Made by a program: the position numbers and the translations under genes. Below are positions 59,642 through 60,247 of a stretch of DNA of 64,000 nucleotides, piece by piece (within the stretch, counting starts at the first letter, position 1; each line of letters starts with the position of its first letter). Under the pieces are notes generated by a model. That model was not told where the DNA came from, did no database searches, and saw only the letters and a program-made list of their open reading frames with translations. The stretch covers positions 1-64,000 of IMG/VR virus record IMGVR_UViG_3300028883_000295; one strand, given 5' to 3'. This DNA is from a virus.

Positions 59642-59662
59642 TAGAATAAGGGGTGATTTAAT

Positions 59663-60247
59663 ATAACTAAAGTATATTTCACAGCAGATACTCACTTCAA
59701 TCATGCAAACATCATTGCATACACAAACAGACCATATGCTAAAAAGGATAGGGATTATTTCATCCTAGATGATGGAAATGTAGTGTGGAAATCAGATAAA
59801 GTCAAATTTGATAGGTGCAGATATATGAATGAGGATCTGATTGAGAAGTGGAACTCTGTTGTGGAACCTGAAGATGTTGTTTATCATCTAGGTGATTTTG
59901 GATTTCTCAACTCCAAAGAATATGATGAGTTTCTTAATAGATTGAATGGAAGAATTGTTTTGTTCAGTGGAAATCATGACAAGCAGAATAAGATAAAGGG
60001 TTATCTTGAGATGGCTATGATGGAATTTGGAAGCAAGAAGGTATTTGCACAGCATACACCACCTCAGATAATTCCTGAATGTGATTTCTGCATATGTGGG
60101 CATGTTCATGATAAGTGGAAACATAAAGTCTACAGGAAGCAACCAAATATACCAATCATCAATGTTGGGGTGGATGTTTGGAATCATCAACCTGTATCAA
60201 CATTGAGCTTGTTGAAATATTATAATGAAATATTAAAGGAGATGTGA
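59663..60247 (+). CDS. Calcineurin-type metallophosphoesterase with an ATA start
   Basis: The frame codes TKVYFTADTHFNHANIIAY, YHLGDFGF (G77-D78), FSGNHDKQ (GNHD 103-106), AQHTPP (H131) and CGHVHDKW (146-149), the complete metallophosphoesterase set. The D-x-H motif (D9, H11) lies before any ATG/GTG/TTG. After the in-frame TGA at 59654-59656 the codons are TTT AAT ATA ACT AAA. GGGGTGA ends 6 bases before ATA. The first standard start, GTG at 59783, would remove the first metal site. Such enzymes cleave phosphodiesters of nucleotides; the substrate here is unknown. Confidence 0.88.
   Translation: MTKVYFTADTHFNHANIIAYTNRPYAKKDRDYFILDDGNVVWKSDKVKFDRCRYMNEDLIEKWNSVVEPEDVVYHLGDFGFLNSKEYDEFLNRLNGRIVLFSGNHDKQNKIKGYLEMAMMEFGSKKVFAQHTPPQIIPECDFCICGHVHDKWKHKVYRKQPNIPIINVGVDVWNHQPVSTLSLLKYYNEILKEM

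Follow-up and report, generated by a model that had tools for sequence, protein, structure and literature searches.

Probable AUA initiation of a metallophosphoesterase gene in a likely archaeal tailed virus, with candidate AUA and AUU starts in other genes of the virus and its relatives

Introduction

How can a gene be translated when its reading frame contains no ordinary start codon ahead of its catalytic motif? The question is raised by a metallophosphoesterase gene of the virus record IMGVR_UViG_3300028883_000295, for which an earlier note, made from the sequence alone, proposed initiation at AUA. The window analyzed here is the stretch of 64,000 nucleotides formed by positions 1 to 64,000 of that record. 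AUA, one of the rarest initiation codons, is known as a start mainly from bacteria. The AUU start of Escherichia coli infC lowers initiation, is sensitive to IF3 and belongs to an autoregulated cellular gene; the viral gene resembles it in having an AUN start and differs in this cellular autoregulation. Archaea have aIF1, not IF3. A search of part of the literature turned up no AUA start described for archaea or archaeal viruses.

The closest precedent comes from Staphylococcus aureus, in which AUA starts of infC, ccpN and citZ and the AUU start of cvfC1, all behind extended Shine-Dalgarno (SD) sequences, were mapped by ribosome profiling (PMC13009471). Reporters of ccpN, citZ and cvfC1 gave about 10-30% of the AUG level, and the AUN codon is conserved in divergent relatives for ccpN and cvfC1, though such conservation is not needed in every known case (same source). 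The evidence below favors, with a probability of roughly 0.7, translation of the metallophosphoesterase from AUA at 59663 through a strong SD, a device that would be reused in other genes.

The Reading Frame and Its ATA Codon

The elements of the locus are as follows.

59663-60247, + strand: metallophosphoesterase open reading frame, 194 codons from ATA, ending with TAA at 60245-60247
59663-59665, + strand: ATA, putative initiation codon and sole one-base neighbor of ATG before the DxH motif
59654-59656, + strand: in-frame TGA that bars an upstream start, as read in the sequence; TGA 59639 and TAG 59642 are also in frame
59650-59657, + strand: Shine-Dalgarno sequence GGGGTGAT, duplex -12.6 kcal/mol, spacing 3 to the ATA
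59495-59641, + strand: upstream 48-codon open reading frame, its stop ending 21 nt before the ATA
59783-60247, + strand: standard gene-finder call with a GTG start, 154 aa, without the DxH strand; SD weak, -3.6

The protein is a metallophosphoesterase, as the earlier note had recognized; by profile and metal-binding motifs it is of the calcineurin-like kind, predicted to be a phosphodiesterase or phosphatase. It matches PF12850 (30.2 bits, cut-off 27) and PF00149 (26.4 bits, cut-off 21.5), both above the curated cut-off, as well as the PHROG phosphoesterase phrog_547 (E 5e-40), and its nearest solved structure is PDB 1xm7 (Aquifex aq_1665). The motifs DxH, GD, GNHD and GHxH are intact and invariant in five aligned sequences. 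Confidence in the AlphaFold model is low (mean pLDDT 62), and the model served only to place a strand at residues 4-8 after the ATA. A pyrimidine dimer DNA glycosylase (PF03013; window 58930-59370, + strand) lies a few genes upstream.

The bases around the proposed start are those first described: GGGGTGA (59650-59656), TTTAAT, and then ATA ACT AAA GTA. After the TGA the frame reads TTT (59657), AAT (59660), ATA (59663), ACT, AAA, GTA, TAT, TTC, ACA, GCA, GAT (59687), ACT, CAC, which places the aspartate of the DxH motif (59687-59695) 8 codons past the ATA. From the upstream in-frame stop to the motif there is no ATG, GTG, TTG or CTG in this frame, and both claims of the earlier note, the bar to an earlier start and the lack of a canonical codon, are borne out. 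The earliest canonical in-frame start is GTG 59783, located 40 codons 3' of the ATA and beyond DxH. Translation from this codon, the first that a conventional reading would choose, is highly improbable: the 154-residue product would lose strand 1 and the DxH metal ligands, which are conserved in all homologs, and the SD before it is weak. A different genetic code with AUA read as methionine throughout was rejected, AUA being the commonest isoleucine codon (637 of 1334) and long genes ending at all three standard stops.

Homologs and the Twin Contig

Homologs with 52-62% identity begin with MKVYFT, MKVFFT or MTQVFFT, and the protein considered here reads (I)TKVYFT in the alignment. The ATA thus falls within one residue of the N-terminal methionine of the homologs, and no canonical start precedes the conserved N-terminus. 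The tailed-virus phosphoesterases (phrog_547; PF00149/PF12850; 1xm7) belong to the same family and share its motifs, but all examined homologs outside this lineage use a canonical start. Among 136 homolog loci that hold the motif, a canonical start precedes it in 135; the exception is a twin contig, IMGVR_UViG_3300028920_000694 (115 kb), which carries the same ATA.

The twin is ~99% identical to this virus over most shared parts and 92-97% in others. Within the 2 kb upstream the two differ by 14 single bases, between 57669 and 59377, and from 59378 to 60383, ~1 kb around the gene, they are identical, with flanks that differ by ~0.5-1%. The identical block suggests a recent exchange or sweep, and with it the twin gives no evidence that the ATA is old. 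When the locus was searched by pattern with the third base left free, no further copy turned up, so that ATA is kept only in the near-twin and an AUN codon is not conserved among divergent relatives of the gene.

These data bear on two competing explanations. A G at 59665, misread in sequencing or assembly, would restore ATG by a single base. The earlier note had asked for this check, and a single-assembly error is very unlikely since the same ATA stands in the twin, a separate assembly that departs from this one at the 14 nearby sites and, across much of the genome, by ~1%; AUN starts also recur at other loci. Recent start-loss, ATG to ATA in an accessory gene, would leave an intact frame and an SD as relics, with little or no protein made. 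A single transition separates the codon from ATG, all other homologs start canonically, and two carriers identical over 1 kb could not yet display decay, although all catalytic motifs are intact. For the metallophosphoesterase gene taken alone, start-loss is a serious rival; overall it is an improbable explanation, at odds with the strength of the SD and with a second gene of the same virus, described in the following sections.

Strength of the Shine-Dalgarno Sequence

SD strength was scored as the duplex formed by the 18 bases before a codon with the 16S 3' tail GAUCACCUCCU. In the metallophosphoesterase gene a weak codon is paired with a strong SD, extended and optimally spaced. Canonical starts of this virus have a modal spacing of 2-4, and the spacing of 3 at the ATA agrees with the ideal ribosome-site distance first claimed for it. 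The median SD of canonical genes is -7.0, with 5 of 105 reaching -12, and over the whole genome a fraction of 9.2e-4 of positions combines spacing 2-4 with an SD of at least this strength. Five homologs that start with ATG have values from -4.0 to -8.4, against -12.6 at the ATA. An SD stronger than in any tested ATG homolog is the reverse of the relaxation that start-loss would bring.

Other Candidate AUN Starts in the Virus and Its Relatives

The search for genes with a conserved or coding region above the first canonical start covered the 81.6 kb record and viruses related to it. The main candidates are listed here.

36392-36790, - strand: tail-terminator gene (phrog_78), beginning with ATT at 36790; SD GAGGTGAT, -13.6
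L142:8499-8783 (genome 70499-70783), + strand: 94-codon gene, second AUU-start candidate, its ATT directly after the preceding TAA; SD GAAGGTGAT, -10.6
Relative G002: ERCC4 nuclease with ATA start; SD -9.8; IILCDSREP against MILVDSREP
Relative G002: zinc-ribbon protein with ATA start; SD -12.8; IYCPKCHSKS against MNCPKCGSRS, the homolog having ATG
Relative G006, 99242 (L168:19242), - strand: tape measure, 2118 codons, GAGGAAGGTGAT followed by ATT ATA GCT TCA; SD -13.6

Relatives have ATG or TTG where the tail terminator has its ATT, which aligns with methionine in 13 of the 16 homologs that could be used; the open frame has no canonical start before codon 69. In the twin contig the gene keeps its ATT and has five substitutions, three synonymous and two conservative, a pattern that suggests selection on the ATT-led gene in both contigs. 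A tail terminator is expected to be necessary for virions, and its AUN start in the same virus argues against start-loss. The only known homolog of the 94-codon gene is in the twin. The ERCC4 nuclease of G002 has methionine at this position in all six usable homologs, and its first canonical start is codon 49. In four of these genes (the tail terminator, the 94-codon gene, and the ERCC4 and zinc-ribbon genes of G002) no more than 4 nt separates the start from an upstream stop. In the tape measure of G006 the first canonical start comes only 17-18 codons into the N-terminal region, and the gene probably starts at AUA or AUU.

A start-codon-neutral scan, whose input included two candidate genes put in by hand, returned 12 matches. 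After removal of three frameshift open reading frames, a gene at a contig end, an unclear short open reading frame and a false match, all six that were left have a well-spaced AUN. Recurrence is judged on few genes (about 5-7), some of them found through an SD filter, and the cases were grouped by eye before enrichment was assessed.

The tail terminator of L183 has ATC at the methionine position but is ambiguous, with an alternative TTG two codons later, and the homology-defined ATC case in L193 has a weak SD. The ATC at 105089 in G002 was discarded, its upstream part belonging to another gene, and ATC 14444 in G002, ATT 15957 in G004 and ATC 10231 in L193 are weak leads only.

With AUA or AUU in the place of AUG in other genes of the virus and its relatives, the metallophosphoesterase start is not the isolated oddity that it had first seemed.

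An ATA-Led Frame Probably Entered by Frameshifting

A second ATA-led frame of the virus serves as a check that some such frames are not starts.

34626-34853, - strand: second frame of the tail assembly chaperone (phrog_9001), ATA-led behind an SD-like sequence; +1 product of gene 35283-34840
34848-34840, - strand: shift site TTT CGT TGA; the chaperone pair spans 35283-34626

ATA at 34853 was ruled out as a start, and the frame is best read as made by frameshifting, entered at a conserved TTT CGT TRA +1 shift site and having no start of its own. TTT CGT TAA or TGA ends the first frame in the 14 family loci found to carry the site (L160, L162, L169, L170, L171, L180, L183, L186, L188, L189, L192, L193, L197 and L199), and the second frame is open in +1 (TTC GTT...). 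In this chaperone family the programmed +1 shift falls at a rare CGT codon before the stop, with the 0-frame ending Phe-Arg-stop.

The example lends some color to the idea that the metallophosphoesterase frame, too, is entered by frameshift, by stop readthrough or from an upstream mini-ORF (GTG ATT TAA at 59653). This is most improbable at 59663, where all three in-frame stops (59639, 59642, 59654) precede the ATA, no gene in the overlapping frames reaches it, and the homologs begin with methionine at its place.

The Virus and Its Host

With its terminase, portal and tape measure genes, the virus is probably a tailed virus of archaea (class Caudoviricetes) rather than a bacteriophage. One further gene bears on this assignment.

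L142:4562-5617 (genome 66562-67617), + strand: RadA/Rad51-like recombinase with an N-terminal SWIM zinc finger

In tblastn against phage records this recombinase had no match, and for the ERCC4 nuclease of the virus the only matches in 50,697 phage records are to Haloarcula viruses. Relatives carry the archaeal primase subunits PriL and PriS, PolB and RadA/RadB-like proteins. From these archaeal-type replication and repair genes, Rad51/RadA and ERCC4 here and primase, PolB and RadA/RadB in relatives, we infer an archaeal host. A search for pseudomurein-binding repeats as a host marker was null, with the control also lacking any, and the MCM search matched in all controls, whatever their domain. 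The window contains no tRNA genes and gave no Rfam match.

A run of sugar- and methyl-transfer genes occupies window positions 174-10724 (+ strand), with a TylF/PNKP-phosphatase fusion, a carbamoyltransferase and two epimerase/dehydratases, which suggests glycan or capsid decoration.

A Model for AUA Initiation

In archaeal initiation the small subunit is placed by the SD, after which aIF1 inspects the codon and disfavors mismatches (PMC6237735). At the metallophosphoesterase gene, a near-complete SD (AAGGGGUGAU) would place the small subunit at the AUA, where the initiator Met-tRNA would pair with positions 1 and 2. Because the third position is mismatched, initiation is probably weaker than at AUG and low in yield; PMC10666635 cites a 64-codon survey in which ATT reached ~0.3% of the best codon. 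The strong SD may compensate, since it should lengthen the stay at the codon, so that the AUA would pass part of the time. The product would begin with (M)TKVYFTADTHFNHANIIAYTNR, with methionine and not isoleucine at the N-terminus. Ribosome start at 59663, its yield and the insertion of methionine are what we infer from the sequence.

The same device would act at the AUU of the tail terminator and, in relatives, at the AUA of the ERCC4 nuclease and zinc-ribbon genes and probably at the AUA or AUU of the tape measure. In Haloferax volcanii, reinitiation is efficient at close or overlapping genes and abolished by a 22-nt gap (PMC10666635). Several of the AUN starts likewise overlap or abut an upstream stop, at most 4 nt away, and may gain from termination-reinitiation. 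The metallophosphoesterase differs, with 21 nt to the upstream stop, and given this gap it probably starts de novo.

The arrangement resembles that of infC, ccpN, citZ and cvfC1 in S. aureus, with AUA or AUU closely spaced behind a strong extended SD. By contrast, the S. aureus genes belong to a bacterial host and some have conserved regulatory roles (PMC13009471); here the genes are unrelated, the virus is probably archaeal, and relatives use AUG or UUG in these genes. An AUA start is favored over start-loss by the strength of the SD and by the tail terminator of the same virus with its AUN start. The AUA start proposed earlier therefore stands as the best-supported reading, on the methionine alignment, the SD, the DxH motif just downstream and the AUN starts of other genes, with recent start-loss retained as its rival.

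Implications

Whether this archaeal tailed-virus family routinely uses AUA and AUU (possibly AUC) starts for structural and replication genes, with the SD and stop-start overlap as compensation, is an evenly balanced proposition. Gene finders limited to ATG, GTG and TTG ignore AUA and would clip the N-termini of AUN-start genes; if archaeal viruses use AUN recurrently, some annotated proteins would be without their N-termini or missed. A rule that combines a strong SD, a conserved frame and no canonical start would allow virus catalogues to be rescanned. Routine use of AUA and AUU, if true, would mean that host initiation tolerates a third-position mismatch more than assumed, and the AUN genes would be natural substrates for studying how aIF1 and SD strength set start choice in archaea.
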